A stretch of 22,121 nucleotides of DNA, taken from a virus. Each line of letters opens with the position of its first letter. The first letter of the stretch is position 1. The notes below the pieces were generated by a model. It was not told where the DNA came from. It searched no databases and saw nothing but the letters and a program-made list of their open reading frames with translations. Below are positions 16,456 to 21,736 of this stretch, piece by piece. The stretch is taken from the IMG/VR virus record IMGVR_UViG_3300034018_000529, positions 1-22,121 of that record; one strand, given 5' to 3'. The position numbers and the translations under genes are program-made.

Positions 16456-16925
16456 TTGCGCAGGCTCCTGACGGCCTCACGGGCCTGCTGATGGTTCACG
16501 CGCTGGTAGGCCAGACCCATGTCCTCCCGCGTGTCCGGGTGATCGGGCTCTGTGACGACGATGCCCTCACCGGCAGCCCATGCGATCACAGAGTGCAGGA
16601 AGGCCGTCATCTGCTCCCGGGAGTAGCGTTCTGTGCTGATGAGCCGCGCAGTGCGGTCACCAGTCACCAGCGAAGGCTCCACGGTCACGATGCCGAATGC
16701 TGACTTGAGGTCCTCTTTTAGGTCGGCCTCATGCACGCCCCGTGCGAGTGCGATCTGGCGGATCACGGCGTGCAGGTAGCCTCTCTGCCGGCGAGTGCGC
16801 GGCGCGTCGTAGGCTTTGCACTCCACGATCAACGGTCCGTTCTGGATGCGGGCGCTCAGCAGGTTGCTAAAGCGCCGGATCATATCCGGGGTGCGCAGCA
16901 CCCATGCGCTGCCTTCCATGATCAC
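16452..16925 (-). CDS. ninB: NinB-family recombination protein
   Basis: 157 residues from GTG at 16925, overlapping the previous stop (GTGA), with GAAGG seven bases upstream; an internal ATG at 16919 is an alternative. The NinB (lambda Orf/Rap-like recombination mediator) pattern is seen as GPLIVECKAYDAPRTRRQRG, then YLHAVIRQIALARGVHEADL and KEDLKSAFGI. NinB proteins assist phage recombinases by binding single-stranded DNA and modulating SSB. The C-terminal half (STERYSREQMTAFLHSVIAW, DPDTRED-like end) completes the domain. It sits beside a resolvase-like nuclease, a natural partner. Confidence 0.75.
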   Translation of the reverse strand: MIMEGSAWVLRTPDMIRRFSNLLSARIQNGPLIVECKAYDAPRTRRQRGYLHAVIRQIALARGVHEADLKEDLKSAFGIVTVEPSLVTGDRTARLISTERYSREQMTAFLHSVIAWAAGEGIVVTEPDHPDTREDMGLAYQRVNHQQAREAVRSLRK

Positions 16926-17257
16926 TTGCGCACCTTCGCGGGCTTGAGCCCCGCCCTGATTTGCCGCCCCGATAGCTGCGCTCCCAGATAGTCGCGGCCG
17001 TAGCCCGGAGGTGCCCTACGGTTAAACGGCCTGTGCAGGTCTGCCTCTGACTGGCTGGCGACGTCCGCTGCCCAGACCACTCTGGTGCGGGCGTGAGAGT
17101 CGGTGGATTGCACGCAGCGCAGTGTGGTGCTGACGGCCTGCTCGATCTGGCCGCCCCGGGCCAGAAAAGATGCGACGTCGTCATGCAGCATCTCGCGGAG
17201 CGGGGTCTTGTCTTCGACCCGTTCGATGGATGGGAACCAGTCTTTGGTGCGGCTCAT
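16922..17257 (-). CDS. Hypothetical protein upstream of ninB
   Basis: 111 residues, ATG at 17257 overlapping the previous stop (ATGA). N-terminal MSRTKDWFPSIERVEDKTPL and LREMLHDDVASFLARGG suggest a helical start. The second half is basic (FNRRAPPGYGRDYLGAQLSG, KPAKVRK), compatible with nucleic-acid binding. No known family recognised. It also contains one of the window's GGTTAAAC octamers at 17020, here in coding sequence. Confidence 0.5.
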   Translation of the reverse strand: MSRTKDWFPSIERVEDKTPLREMLHDDVASFLARGGQIEQAVSTTLRCVQSTDSHARTRVVWAADVASQSEADLHRPFNRRAPPGYGRDYLGAQLSGRQIRAGLKPAKVRK

Positions 17258-17445: not shown

Positions 17446-17639
17446 GCTTCATCCCTCTGCTCGCGGCGAGCGCGGTATGCGCGCACCTTACAGGAATTGC
17501 CACAGTACAGCGCCCGCGCAGGGTCCACGGTCTGGAACTTGCGCAGGCAGATGCTGCACCGCAGCGTGACTTTGGTCTTGGCAGCAGCAAGCGCACGGGC
17601 GGCGTCACTGCTGCTGATGGTCGCCCGGCTGCGGCTCAC
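17442..17639 (-). CDS. Small zinc-finger protein
   Basis: 65 residues, GTG start at 17639 overlapping the previous stop (GTGA). Four cysteines are arranged as C28-x2-C31 (LRCSICLRKF) and C46-x3-C50 (YCGNSCKVRAYRARR), the treble-clef style seen in small phage and bacterial zinc-finger proteins. The basic C-terminal helix could contact nucleic acid. Candidate transcription or replication accessory factor; function unknown. Coupled to the membrane protein gene downstream. Confidence 0.65.
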   Translation of the reverse strand: MSRSRATISSSDAARALAAAKTKVTLRCSICLRKFQTVDPARALYCGNSCKVRAYRARREQRDEA

Positions 17640-18484
17640 GCGGCCTCCCGCATCACAATGGAGGCAATTGCCTGCTTGGCGGCCACTGAGGCGCGCTCAG
17701 GCGTGCCGTACTCGCCAATGTTTCCGCCCAGACGCGGCACCCACAGGTCATAGTCCTCACCGCTCACGTAGTTGGCCTCAACGCTGTTATATCCGCCAGA
17801 TTGGGTGTTGGGGTAGGCCAACGGATCGCGCTCTTTAAGAGCGAACGCCAGCCTGCGGTTGAAAGCGGGATGGGCCAGAGCGAATGCGCACGCGCCGGGT
17901 GACCAATCCTGATCGGCGGACTTCAAGACAACGTCCCAGCGGTAGGGCGCGTAGCGCTCATCCACGGCGAGAATGACCGCGTTCACCTCTACGCGGAAGC
18001 CGTCGTTCTCCAGCGAGTCGACGATGGACATAATCGCAGCGCCACGGTTGGTGACGTGCTTTTGCGTGGCCTGCGCGGAGTAGGACGCGGCCACCCCAAT
18101 GCGGAGAACTTTGCTGCGTGCGCGGGGCGCGTCTTCCGGCTCGCCGTCAGTCCACATTGCCTCTGGCAGCCCGGCGAGATGGCTGGGGATGCAGGGAGCG
18201 TAGCCCGCAACAGAGCGCACGCGCTCCAGCGCCGGGGCGCGGTGCGTCATGCGGTCGATCTCGACGCGGGCCTTCTGCAGGTCGGTAGCGCCCTGAGCCC
18301 AGAACCCGCCGCTGAGGCCCATGGACATTGCGCCGTCCATGCCCATGCCCATATCCCACCCCTTACGCGCGTCACGGGACTGTGAAGAATCGCCTGCGCC
18401 GGGCTGGCGGGGGTTGCTGTCGATCCACTGGGCGAGTTCGCGCACGCCGTCGAACGTGCCCCGGAGCGTCGTCTTGATCATCAT
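17636..18484 (-). CDS. Conserved phage protein, probable partner of the AAA+ ATPase (DUF7192-like)
   Basis: 282 residues, ATG at 18484 with AGGACACC upstream. Residues 1-25 are a short domain (TTLRGTFDGVRELAQWID). A glycine/methionine stretch follows at about 44-57. Then come YAPCIPSHLAGLPEAMW, LRIGVAASYSAQATQK, RGAAIMSIVDSLENDGFRVE and AFALAHPAFNRRLAFALKE. From memory, this order of segments matches a phage family (which I recall as DUF7192) often encoded beside CobS/MoxR-like ATPases. It follows the ATPase gene here across only promoter P4. The middle region is reminiscent of a Rossmann or vWA-like fold, but no MIDAS motif is clear. Molecular function unknown. Confidence 0.6.
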   Translation of the reverse strand: MMIKTTLRGTFDGVRELAQWIDSNPRQPGAGDSSQSRDARKGWDMGMGMDGAMSMGLSGGFWAQGATDLQKARVEIDRMTHRAPALERVRSVAGYAPCIPSHLAGLPEAMWTDGEPEDAPRARSKVLRIGVAASYSAQATQKHVTNRGAAIMSIVDSLENDGFRVEVNAVILAVDERYAPYRWDVVLKSADQDWSPGACAFALAHPAFNRRLAFALKERDPLAYPNTQSGGYNSVEANYVSGEDYDLWVPRLGGNIGEYGTPERASVAAKQAIASIVMREAA

Positions 18485-18522
18485 GGTCGGTGTCCTGTGT
18501 GTGAGTGGTGAAGACAGGGGGG

Positions 18523-18551
18523 AGTGTACACCCCCCCGTCGCAGTGTGCAA
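18523..18551 (-). promoter_or_regulatory. Sigma70-like promoter P4 with G-tract in the spacer
   Basis: Minus strand: -35 TTGCAC (18546-18551), 17-base spacer, -10 TACACT (18523-18528). The -35 starts four bases after the AAA+ stop codon. The spacer contains seven consecutive G (C on plus, 18531-18537). A six-C run follows the -10 (G on plus, 18517-18522), so the -10 lies inside a G-run/C-run inverted repeat around GTGTACAC. It drives the 282-residue gene and possibly the recombination and packaging genes downstream. Confidence 0.6.
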
Positions 18552-18555
18552 GTGG

Positions 18556-19653
18556 TCAGACGGCCGCTTCGATGGCGGCGCGCTGGTCGGCTCCCAGACC
18601 CTTCCAGATGAGGGAGTTGGCTGCGTCCACGGTGCCGCCGCCGGCCGCCAGAAAGCGTGCGCCCATAATGGAGGCGCGGGGGGAGACGACGTGCCGGATT
18701 TTCTGCTTTGCGGCCACGTCGCGCACGCGCTGCACAAAGCGCACCCAGCCGTCGATCACCGACTCTTCGGTGCCGCCCGCCGCCCGGAAGGCGGAGGATG
18801 CCAGACGGCGCTCCAGCCCGGCGTCATAGTCGAACTCGACCACTGCAAACCTATCCAAAGTCGCGGCGTCGAGTTGGCTGCGGCCAACATATTGACGGTC
18901 AGCGCCACGGCCGAACGTGTTGGCTGCCGCCACTGCGCGGAAGTCGGCGTGAGCGCGCACAGGCCCGTCGGGGAAGTCACAGAGACCGTTGGCCAGTGCG
19001 GCGTTAAACGCGACAAGCGCCTCCGCGCTACTCGCGTCGATCTCATCGAACAGGAACAAGCCGCCGTGCTCATAGGCATCGCGGAACGCCGTGCGGTGAT
19101 AGGTGCCGCCGGCGTCGATGAAGCCCAGCAACTTGTGCTCCTGACGCACGGCGCTGGTGAACCGAAAGGCCAGACCCAGATGGCGTGCGACCTGCTCGCA
19201 GGCCGTCGTCTTGCCGCTGCCGGCCGGGCCGACCAGATTCACTGCCACGCCCGCCTGCACCCAGCGAATAATCGCGGGCACGCTGGCGTGGACGTGCTCC
19301 TCAGTGATGATCTCGCCAGTGGTCGGCTCGCGCACTTCCAGCGTGATGCGCGTTTCAATCGTCTGGGTGCCGTACAGCTGGATGAGCTCGATCACCCGCT
19401 GTTCATCCAGCGCGGGGGTGAGCGTGCTCACCAGTGCGGCGATGGCTGCCTCCACGCCGCCCTGCTGGGCCGGTGCGGAGATCGTGGCGGGGACCGCCGT
19501 CTCGCGGATCGTGGCGGGGACCCCCCTGTCAGGGACTGCGCCCGTGTCGCGGAATGCGACCAGCTGCGCTTCGTTCCAGCAGGAGGGGCGGTGCCCGGCT
19601 TTGACAGCCTGCAGGCGGATGGCGGCGATTTCGGAAGTGGTCAGCGCGGTCAT
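18556..19653 (-). CDS. MoxR/CobS-like AAA+ ATPase
   Basis: 365 residues, ATG at 19653 with AGAGGACACC leader. Walker A GPAGSGKT is at 142-149, Walker B LFLFDE at 199-204, sensor 1 NT at 245-246 (AAANTFGRG), and the second arginine region LDAATLDRF at 261-269. C-terminal IRHVVSPRASIMGARFLAAG is a lid segment of the MoxR/CobS group. The N-terminal 120 residues are separate: a short helix (EIAAIRLQAVKAGHRPSCW) and a repeated PATI motif at 46-59 (VPATIRE then VPATISA). Relatives remodel protein complexes, often with a vWA partner. Its substrate in phages is unknown. It is transcribed from its own promoter P2. Confidence 0.82.
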   Translation of the reverse strand: MTALTTSEIAAIRLQAVKAGHRPSCWNEAQLVAFRDTGAVPDRGVPATIRETAVPATISAPAQQGGVEAAIAALVSTLTPALDEQRVIELIQLYGTQTIETRITLEVREPTTGEIITEEHVHASVPAIIRWVQAGVAVNLVGPAGSGKTTACEQVARHLGLAFRFTSAVRQEHKLLGFIDAGGTYHRTAFRDAYEHGGLFLFDEIDASSAEALVAFNAALANGLCDFPDGPVRAHADFRAVAAANTFGRGADRQYVGRSQLDAATLDRFAVVEFDYDAGLERRLASSAFRAAGGTEESVIDGWVRFVQRVRDVAAKQKIRHVVSPRASIMGARFLAAGGGTVDAANSLIWKGLGADQRAAIEAAV

Positions 19654-19673
19654 TTCGGTGTCCTCTGGGTTGG

Positions 19674-19691
19674 GCCAGCAAGTGCGCTGGC
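19674..19691 (-). promoter_or_regulatory. Leader hairpin before the AAA+ gene
   Basis: Perfect 6-base stem GCCAGC/GCTGGC with a 6-base loop, lying between the -10 of P2 and the AGAGGACACC ribosome binding site. Hairpins occupy the same place in the leaders of P1 and P3. May protect or tune the mRNA 5' end. Confidence 0.5.
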
Positions 19692-19701
19692 ATGGGGGGG
19701 G

Positions 19702-19729
19702 AGTGTACGCTCTCCCGGGGCAGTGTCAA
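19702..19729 (-). promoter_or_regulatory. Sigma70-like promoter P2 for the AAA+ gene
   Basis: Minus strand: perfect -35 TTGACA (19724-19729), 16-base spacer, -10 TACACT (19702-19707). Eight C follow the -10 directly (G on plus, 19694-19701), so the transcript probably starts in or next to that tract. The distance to the AAA+ ATG leaves a leader of about 40 bases. Confidence 0.75.
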
Positions 19730-19738
19730 CCCCCCGTG

Positions 19739-19760
19739 ATGCGGTTAAACGTAAATATTT
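19739..19760 (-). promoter_or_regulatory. Conserved 22-base box upstream of P2
   Basis: On the plus strand the box starts ATGCGGTTAAACGT and ends ATTT. It matches a box upstream of P1 at 19 of 22 positions and stands exactly 9 bases upstream of the -35 in both cases. The distal end is AT-rich and overlaps a perfect 12-base palindrome GTAAATATTTAC (19751-19762). Candidate activator/repressor site or UP element. Confidence 0.6.
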
Positions 19761-19944
19761 ACTCTGGGGGCGGCAGCACCTCCACTTCAGTGCTGGGGGG
19801 CAGGGAGATCAGGTCGCCCGTGCGGATGACGTAGAGGACCAGCCTGCGGGACTTGCGCCCCGCGTGCCCGTCCTCATGCGTGACTACGATGCACTCCTCA
19901 GCCTGCCAGCGGACGTATGTGCCGGACGGGGGCATTGGATTCAC
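19759..19944 (-). CDS. Small hypothetical protein, last gene of the P3 unit
   Basis: 61 residues, GTG start at 19944 overlapping the previous stop (GTGA). An SH3-like or small beta domain is suggested: TYVRWQAEECIVVTHEDGHA, RLVLYVIRTGDLISLP, then STEVEVLPPPE. No known family recognised. Its TAA stop overlaps the conserved box upstream of P2. Confidence 0.5.
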   Translation of the reverse strand: MNPMPPSGTYVRWQAEECIVVTHEDGHAGRKSRRLVLYVIRTGDLISLPPSTEVEVLPPPE

Positions 19945-20168
19945 TCTGCGTCCTCCCCCTCATCGTCATCGTCGCCGTCGTCGTCTGGCGTCTCGACCTC
20001 AGCCCATGCGAGCCGGGCCTCAGTCGCGGCCGTGCGGCGGTCTTTCTCAGCCTGCGGCAGCGCGTCCCAAGCCGCCTGCTCGCGGGCGTCTTCGGCTCGC
20101 GCTGCGGCGAGCATCTCCGCTTCCATCTGGGCGAACACGTCACCCAAGCACTGCGCGTCCCGGCTCAT
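19941..20168 (-). CDS. Small acidic protein
   Basis: 75 residues, ATG at 20168 overlapping the previous stop (ATGA), with GGGAGG upstream. Helical body (DVFAQMEAEMLAAARAEDAR, REQAAWDALPQAEKDRR), then a C-terminal tail dominated by D and E (TPDDDGDDDDEGEDAE). Overall strongly acidic. Small acidic phage proteins can mimic DNA or inhibit host enzymes, but nothing here proves that. Unknown function. Confidence 0.5.
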   Translation of the reverse strand: MSRDAQCLGDVFAQMEAEMLAAARAEDAREQAAWDALPQAEKDRRTAATEARLAWAEVETPDDDGDDDDEGEDAE

Positions 20169-20386
20169 GCCGCAGCCTCCCGCGTGAAGAACTGCCCCCG
20201 GCGCTCGATCAGCCTGCGGGGCTTCCAGCCCCGGGATGTGTCGAGCATGAGCGTCCAGCCGTGCGCCAGAGCCTGCCGGGCGAACGCCTGCGGCACCCGC
20301 CGGGCACCCCAGCCGTCTGAGCCGGTGCGGATGAGGCAGAAGGCGACCTCCTGCCCGTCTTCTGAGAGTGCTGCCAGCCTGTTCAT
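20165..20386 (-). CDS. Small hypothetical protein
   Basis: 73 residues from ATG at 20386, chosen because it overlaps the upstream stop (ATGA). The frame is open further upstream, but those residues are only the neighbouring gene read in another frame. Contains EVAFCLIRTGSDGWGARRVP, QAFARQALAHGWTLMLDTSR and a basic GWKPRRLIERRGQF end. Looks like a compact alpha/beta protein; no family recognised. Confidence 0.5.
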   Translation of the reverse strand: MNRLAALSEDGQEVAFCLIRTGSDGWGARRVPQAFARQALAHGWTLMLDTSRGWKPRRLIERRGQFFTREAAA

Positions 20387-21032: not shown

Positions 21033-21091
21033 ACGTTCCCGTGCTGCCCGCACGTGGCGGGCAGACCGTGAATGCCTCAGCCCGGGAACGT
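21033..21091 (-). repeat. Nested inverted repeats between the protease gene and the 84-residue gene
   Basis: Outer arms ACGTTCCCG (21033-21041) and CGGGAACGT (21083-21091) are a perfect 9-base pair. Inner arms CTGCCCG (21044-21050) and CGGGCAG (21058-21064) are a perfect 7-base pair with a CACGTGG loop. The outer arm lies in the last codons of the protease gene. No T-run follows, so it looks like an mRNA structure (processing or translation control) rather than a terminator. Confidence 0.6.
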
Positions 21092-21664
21092 GAGATCGCA
21101 CTCGCCGCAGACCGGGCAGACGGGGTCGCCGCCCTGCCAGCGCATGATCTGCATCAGGCTGGTGCGGGCGACAAAACCGCACGCGCCGCAGGACACCTTC
21201 AACTGCCGGGTGCCGGCGATCTTGCGGTGAGAGACGTCCATCTTGGAGTGCGGGAACGCGCCCAGTGCGTCCGCCAGCCCGGCCAGATCGGCAGCGAGCG
21301 CCTTACCGGCGTGCGTGGCCGTCAGCGGGCCCTCCAGCCCACAGGAGCGGGCGTAAACGGCAAAGCGGCCCCGGTGACCGTCTTGGCAGTCCAGCACGGC
21401 GTGGAGAAGCTCATGCACCAAAACGGGCAGGATGACCATGGGATCGTCGATCTCCGGTGAGATGAACACTTCGTTGACGCCGTCGGTGGACGCGGCGCGA
21501 ACAAAGCACTGCCCGATTGCCTTCTGGCCGCCACGGGAGCCTTTCGGCCAGCCGACAGTGATGCGCACGGGCGGCATCTGCGCGCCCGGGCACTTGGGCA
21601 GGATGGTGCCCTCAAGAATGATGCAGGCCGCTTCAGTCAGCCACGCTTCACGGGTGTCGATCAT
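21077..21664 (-). CDS. SprT-like zinc metalloprotease
   Basis: 195 residues from ATG at 21664, placed by the ACTGAGGACACCGAA leader; the frame continues upstream, but into the promoter. The catalytic zinc site is HELLH at 84-88 with a third ligand H97 (DGHRGRF), the SprT/Spartan arrangement. A C-terminal zinc ribbon has C159-x2-C162 and C183-x2-C186. Relatives such as eukaryotic Spartan cleave proteins crosslinked to DNA; bacterial SprT roles are less clear. In a phage it might clear DNA-protein barriers or a host factor, which is inference. It is first in the P1 unit, compatible with early expression. Confidence 0.8.
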   Translation of the reverse strand: MIDTREAWLTEAACIILEGTILPKCPGAQMPPVRITVGWPKGSRGGQKAIGQCFVRAASTDGVNEVFISPEIDDPMVILPVLVHELLHAVLDCQDGHRGRFAVYARSCGLEGPLTATHAGKALAADLAGLADALGAFPHSKMDVSHRKIAGTRQLKVSCGACGFVARTSLMQIMRWQGGDPVCPVCGECDLTFPG

Positions 21665-21682
21665 TTCGGTGTCCTCAGTGTG

Positions 21683-21699
21683 CCCAACGACGTGCTGGG
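21683..21699 (-). promoter_or_regulatory. Leader hairpin in the P1 transcript
   Basis: Arms CCCA and TGGG flank a short loop, with further partial pairing (CACG/CG). It is directly followed by the 18-base GGGCACACTGAGGACACC (plus 21668-21685) that also follows the P3 hairpin. The stem is weaker than in P3. Confidence 0.4.
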
Positions 21700-21708
21700 A
21701 TGAGGCGC

Positions 21709-21736
21709 ATCGTACATGGCTGCGGGACGGAGTCAA
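21709..21736 (-). promoter_or_regulatory. Sigma70-like promoter P1 for the protease unit
   Basis: Minus strand: -35 TTGACT (21731-21736), 16-base spacer, -10 TACGAT (21709-21714). The leader to the protease ATG is about 40 bases. Spacing and -35 quality match P2 and P3. Confidence 0.7.

Follow-up and report, generated by a model that had tools for sequence, protein, structure and literature searches.

The locus described here raises the question of whether an AAA+ ATPase gene of a tailed phage and the gene next to it encode a single machine and, if so, what that machine acts upon. The window, by which the whole stretch of DNA analysed is meant, comes from IMG/VR and is a virus contig of 22,121 bases; the genes on its minus strand are ordered as in tailed phages, those for terminase, portal, scaffold, major head protein and endolysin being recognised, and a megablast search for nearby phage genomes found none. 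Both genes lie within one long minus-strand array, upstream of the terminase and head genes, from which they are separated by genes for a NinB-like recombination mediator and a RusA-like resolvase. Long plus-strand reading frames spanning both genes (e.g. 18505-20187) were interpreted as antisense artefacts of GC-rich sequence. The same pair occurs in lytic phages that have been studied in detail (Kayvirus, Pecentumvirus and cluster L mycobacteriophages), where it is annotated as 'porphyrin biosynthesis' or has no assigned function. No published description of DUF7192, the family of the second gene, was found under that name, and expression papers on Kayvirus and Listeria P100-like phages do not mention the pair.

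The first of the two genes and its nucleotide-binding motifs are placed as follows.

18556..19653, minus strand: AAA+ ATPase gene, 365 amino acids, MoxR/CobS-type (phrog_249), from sequence profiles and an AlphaFold2 model
19207..19230, minus strand: Walker A, GPAGSGKT, residues 142-149, with G142, G147 and K148 invariant in 43/43 relatives
19036..19056, minus strand: Walker B, FLFDEID, residues 200-206, with D203, E204 and D206 invariant in 43/43 relatives

This gene encodes a complete MoxR/CobS-type AAA+ ATPase. Sensor-1 (N245), the Arg finger (R268) and sensor-2 (R326) were also identified, and the motifs were invariant or nearly so across 43 divergent relatives, bearing out the full AAA+ motif set reported for this reading frame in a preliminary description of the window. 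In the AlphaFold2 model (pLDDT 86.7), a MoxR-type helix-2 insert is formed by a beta-hairpin (178-186) between helices 173-176 and 189-196. The structures nearest to this model were CbbQ (Z 21.7) and NorQ (Z 21.2), each over about 240 residues, followed by McrB, dynein and midasin at Z of about 16. Comparison of the ATPase profile with PDB sequences gave matches that include midasin, CobS, CbbQ and NorQ, with midasin the best of them (E 4e-35). PADLOC assigned the pair to no defence family, its matches being limited to weak AAA ones to IetA.

As the DUF7192 protein diverges too fast for single-sequence search (its own search of IMG/VR returned no relative), the ATPase was chosen as bait, and 80 IMG/VR loci were recovered. 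A DUF7192 reading frame lay directly downstream of the ATPase and on the same strand in 78 of these contigs, and the remaining two end inside the ATPase gene. When reduced to 48 non-redundant viral loci, all with the ATPase, DUF7192 was present in 45 by BLAST and in 48 by HMM, the most shared neighbour after these two being terminase (10/48), and the median distance between the two genes was 52 bases. The linkage in phages is thus near absolute. Absence of co-occurrence elsewhere had been named beforehand as refuting a pairing, and the opposite was found, in agreement with the earlier view that the 282-residue product belongs to a family that accompanies such ATPases. The distance matrices of the two families were correlated (r = 0.80 over 64 pairs; 0 of 2000 permutations gave a value as high, and none exceeded 0.32), and partners have therefore not been swapped, although linked inheritance of neighbours would also yield correlated matrices without any interaction. 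The pair is found in Rhizobium phages P106B, RHph_X2_24 and phiM5, Tunturi_4, Kayvirus Sb-1 (Staphylococcus), mycobacteriophages Aegeus and Gabriela, Gordonia phage Sephiroth, Lactobacillus phage 3-521, Listeria phage LP-125 and the crAss-like phage cr10_1, and in Acinetobacter phage Bestia with one opposite gene in between. All annotated isolates with a close ATPase relative that were checked carry DUF7192; CobS of cyanophage P-SSM2, a distant relative of the ATPase, is without it. In the record of Sinorhizobium phage phiM5, a 66-residue reading frame inside the ATPase gene, in another frame (L084:1349-1546), is noted as detected in the particle proteome.

The second gene and the motif position of interest within it are the following.

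17636..18484, minus strand: partner gene, 282 amino acids, DUF7192 (PF23822), putative small vWA-like adaptor, from profiles and an AlphaFold2 model
18077..18091, minus strand: residues 132-136, MIDAS remnant AASYS, in the place expected for DxSxS at the end of strand 1, from an alignment census of 82 relatives

The protein matched the DUF7192 profile with 71.4 bits against a curated cut-off of 27 (E 1e-19) and phrog_1909 with E 4e-22, both families being without assigned function; NCBIfam held nothing for DUF7192, and the DUF7192 profile found nothing among PDB sequences up to E 10. A model built from 44 sequences (pLDDT 86.9, pTM 0.83) was more informative. In a Foldseek search of the PDB, its only matches below 1e-3 were the VWA domains of NorD in NorQD complexes (E 3e-4), and a second aligner returned NorD (Z 8.2 and 7.6) and Rea1-MIDAS (Z 7.4), followed almost only by vWA domains, these scores lying near the level at which the aligner warns of a merely common arrangement. 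Superposition on NorD gave a TM of 0.25 and an rmsd of 5-6 Å over about 180 residues, with a short C-terminal sheet. In a BFVD search, ranks 1-12 were DUF7192-type proteins and ranks 13-24 mostly phage vWA/CobT proteins. A profile comparison of DUF7192 with cyanophage CobT gave no match and was uninformative, the CobT alignment being shallow. The partner is read as vWA-like because the families topping its model matches are the vWA partners of MoxR-clade motors, which were found independently of the neighbouring gene; its model is that of a compact vWA-like protein, with a fit that is moderate by score.

The same model bears on the metal site. The preliminary description had noted that MoxR-type ATPases usually work with a vWA partner and that no clear MIDAS is visible here. 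The second part stands, as DxSxS was found in 0 of 82 divergent DUF7192 relatives; a reading of the partner as something other than a vWA protein appears not to, its model being vWA-like. The window protein has AxSxS at the DxSxS position, the relaxed form Dx[ST]x[ST] occurs in 1 of the 82 relatives, the remnant xx[ST]x[ST] is kept in 34, and the aspartate alone in 16, N or S being commoner there. In the Malacoplasma partner, assigned by profile comparison (probability 91.5, E 9e-7), NISGNM takes the place of the DxSGSM of vWA proteins and is a single step away from this classical form. Judged at this position of the alignment, the MIDAS appears eroded beyond a readable motif, and for this reason none was seen at the outset.

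Taken together, we consider it probable, on the strength of single-chain models and analogy, that the pair forms one machine, in which a MoxR-type hexameric ring works with a dedicated, metal-less vWA-like adaptor to remodel a client. The ATPase would assemble into the ring, the DUF7192 domain would dock in it as NorD does on NorQ, and ATP hydrolysis would turn or pull the adaptor, so that a protein client held by it is remodelled. In the NorQD mechanism, the VWA domain of NorD reaches into the pore of NorQ with a finger and the C-terminus of NorD contacts the post-sensor-1 loop, partner and target being twisted together as ATP is hydrolysed (PMC13036017, PMC9976466). The MIDAS of NorD is needed for client activation and not for ring binding (PMC9976466); by this analogy, loss of the MIDAS would be compatible with ring binding and implies another way of holding the client. 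Unlike NorD, CobT and Rea1, the adaptor would lack a metal grip, and since the MIDAS is lost, a metal-independent client contact must be assumed. A MIDAS-less adaptor might thus work differently from NorD.

Three sites in the leaders of the two genes bear on their control.

19702..19729, minus strand: promoter-like site TTGACA-16-TACACT before the ATPase gene, about 50 bp before its start, 10/12 matches
19696..19708, minus strand: leader element GTACACTCCCCCC before the ATPase gene, 13 bases
18517..18529, minus strand: leader element GTACACTCCCCCC before the DUF7192 gene, identical to the copy before the ATPase

Sigma-70-like sites numbered 3 in 6.6 kb versus 0.6 expected. The pair had been described as having its own promoters, away from structural genes; the former is plausible given the site before the ATPase, whereas the latter fails, because the long minus-strand array is shared with the structural genes. 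No other exact copy of GTACACTCCCCCC occurs in the window, and its presence before both genes supports joint control of the pair; the element may be a promoter or a regulator site common to both. A small protein encoded at a little distance on the same strand may itself be a transcription modulator of the phage.

16922-17257, minus strand: small protein matching the RNA-polymerase-binding domain of SutA (PF20661) with E 1e-6, slightly short of the cut-off

The pair is not confined to phages. In 84,980 species genomes, a single scan detected 52 bacterial loci, in 40 of which DUF7192 adjoins the ATPase by HMM; seven more belong to Malacoplasma/Mycoplasma and have a divergent DUF7192, recognised for the group by profile comparison. 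As for the rest, two are cut by contig ends, one (L126) has no DUF7192 next door to the ATPase, one (L146) is of the CobT type, and one, in a Turneriella MAG (L139:7791-8828), is a single decayed reading frame in which the ATPase, after its first half, continues as the C-terminal portion of DUF7192, as though what lay between had been deleted. The pair is rare even with seed genomes included (Flavobacteriaceae, 6/199; a Saccharibacteria class, 2/147; two further groups, 1/295 and 4/296). Several copies are surrounded by housekeeping genes and lack adjacent phage genes, as in Flavobacterium swingsii (recQ-fmt-HU-rny) and an alphaproteobacterial MAG (rplK/rplA), the gene names having been read by eye from the sequences; a prophage origin of all bacterial copies was rejected on account of such loci. 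On the ATPase tree, labels must switch between viral and bacterial 4 to 6 times, so that the cassette has repeatedly passed from one to the other of phages and cells. In two of the Malacoplasma/Mycoplasma loci (L134, L135), the pair is retained in genomes of about 1 Mb with a divergent partner. In Flavobacteriaceae, DUF7192 proteins of about 339 residues (L151:973-1977, L152-L156) are accompanied in every case by one recurring set of small genes, a setting that is probably an integrative element.

Some chromosomal copies have neighbours of a distinct kind. In a Bacteroides MAG (L127:1105-3033), the DUF7192 protein beside the ATPase carries a C-terminal DarT-like ADP-ribosyltransferase (28.3 bits versus a cut-off of 22.5), and a second DUF7192-DarT-like fusion adjoins the ATPase in an Acholeplasmatales MAG (L124:8975-10939), scoring 21.8 bits in the protein scan, just below 22.5, and 25.8 in the genome scan. 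Upstream of the ATPase in Flavobacteriales, a response-regulator gene precedes the pair (seven Bacteroidota copies), with receiver and LytTR domains in the two regulators scanned (L110, L115). The response-regulator/McrC loci examined upstream of the ATPase were L110, L115, L107, L109 and L121, and McrC adjoins the pair in L109 and L121, both of Bacteroidota. Single Bacteroidota copies lie near an HsdR-like gene and a YgjP peptidase, or near a TIR protein. No third family was constant, the maximum being 10 of 48 viral and 7 of 52 bacterial loci, and none of VMAP, iSTAND, FtsH or beta-propeller proteins was a constant neighbour across these loci.

The patchy distribution, the defence-type neighbours in some chromosomes and the two DarT-like fusions hint at genetic conflict, and on these grounds we tentatively suggest, as a possibility that falls short of likelihood, that the client belongs to the conflict machinery of the host or of a rival element and not to the virion. 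The fuller proposal is that phages and bacteria share the pair as a mobile conflict module, in which a MoxR-vWA switch working without metal could bear a toxin in cells (the DarT-like DNA ADP-ribosyltransferase fused to the adaptor) and would be reduced in phages to the bare remodeller, serving to disarm host defences or rival elements; in this complete form it seems to us a rather unlikely one. A chaperone for virion assembly, by which the pair would fold or assemble tail or head proteins, has precedents in ATV p618, which with its vWA partner p892 is involved in tail development (PMC4124505), and in the jumbo-phage MoxR and peptidase-vWA pair, for which such a role was proposed (PMC7824862). 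The occurrence of the pair in bacterial chromosomes without adjacent phage genes, the at least four viral/bacterial changes needed by the tree, and the lack of any constant structural gene family (terminase, the commonest, being the one found in 10/48 loci) make this unlikely. If the client were instead a phage or host enzyme into which a NorQD/CoxDE-like factor loads metal, the closest solved relatives, NorQD and CbbQO, would be accounted for; yet no candidate metalloenzyme was a constant neighbour in the 48 loci, and the MIDAS that NorD uses on its target is gone, so that we regard metal insertion as improbable.

A further alternative, an unfolding motor for a protease, draws on another gene of the window, five small genes away from the ATPase.

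21077..21736, minus strand: HExxH (SprT-like) metallopeptidase-type protein with zinc ribbon, phrog_6361, motif HELLH

With this protein, the pair would feed proteins into cleavage or strip them, for example from DNA. In one phage lineage, the window included, the metallopeptidase gene lies just upstream of the ATPase, and its vicinity parallels the peptidase domain that jumbo phages carry in the same chain as a CobT-type vWA (PMC7824862). It is found in 8 of the 48 non-redundant loci, however, and is hence an optional neighbour and not part of the core, which leaves a protease motor with little probability. The least credible reading, and a highly improbable one, is that the two proteins are cobaltochelatase subunits, CobS and a CobT-like partner that with host CobN would raise cobalamin. 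It follows from the phrog_249 label, from CobS being among the PDB matches and from the CobST proposed for haloarchaeal viruses (PMC8651126), but CobN was missing in 9 of 10 bacterial carriers (5 of 14 controls were positive), the ATPase scored 29.2 bits against the CobS equivalog cut-off of 558.55, and the partner has neither the MIDAS nor the size nor the sequence of CobT. The 'porphyrin biosynthesis/CobS' label is therefore misleading. The preliminary description was right in treating the role of the pair in infection as not established. If DUF7192 is read as a probable vWA-like adaptor for the motor encoded beside it, a testable machine, for which tractable host-phage pairs exist, takes the place of a misleading label, and MoxR-vWA pairs may prove able to function without the metal site to which holding of the client is ascribed.

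Among known systems, NorQ-NorD (PDB 9qhd, 9qh6) is the top structural match for both proteins and likewise combines, in one gene cluster, a MoxR AAA+ ring having the helix-2 insert with a vWA partner. NorD differs in its 70 kDa size, intact DxSxS-T-D MIDAS, pore finger and N-terminal domain, whereas the DUF7192 protein has about 31 kDa and no MIDAS; no nor genes occur in the window or as constant neighbours in the 48 viral loci, and a partner of 282 residues is not of NorD size. CobS-CobT, and the cobST of phages and haloarchaeal viruses, share the broad ATPase family (phrog_249; CobS PDB 9ujv) and the two-gene viral cassette, but the viral CobT proteins seen here have about 570-740 residues, an intact MIDAS (DWSGS in cyanophages) and, in cyanophages, an N-terminal HExxH. 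Midasin/Rea1, whose relation to both proteins is seen in the ATPase profile match and the Rea1-MIDAS match of the partner model, places six AAA+ modules and a vWA domain with intact MIDAS in one giant eukaryotic chain. ATV p618-p892, likened to the pair by description, is also a virus-encoded MoxR and vWA couple, but p892 is a recognised vWA protein with a virion-related role. The MoxR-vWA ternary conflict systems (PMC7159879) have a MoxR and vWA core in which some vWA domains are without the MIDAS aspartates, and effectors may be fused to their vWA protein as the DarT-like domain is to DUF7192 in two loci; they differ in having VMAP, iSTAND and others as a third component, for which no constant counterpart was found here. 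The pair had been put forward as the best candidate for an undescribed system, a view that gives way once the partner is modelled as vWA-like: on this reading, ATPase-DUF7192 represents a variant of the MoxR-vWA type already known, with the same motor and a dedicated, metal-less mini-vWA partner.
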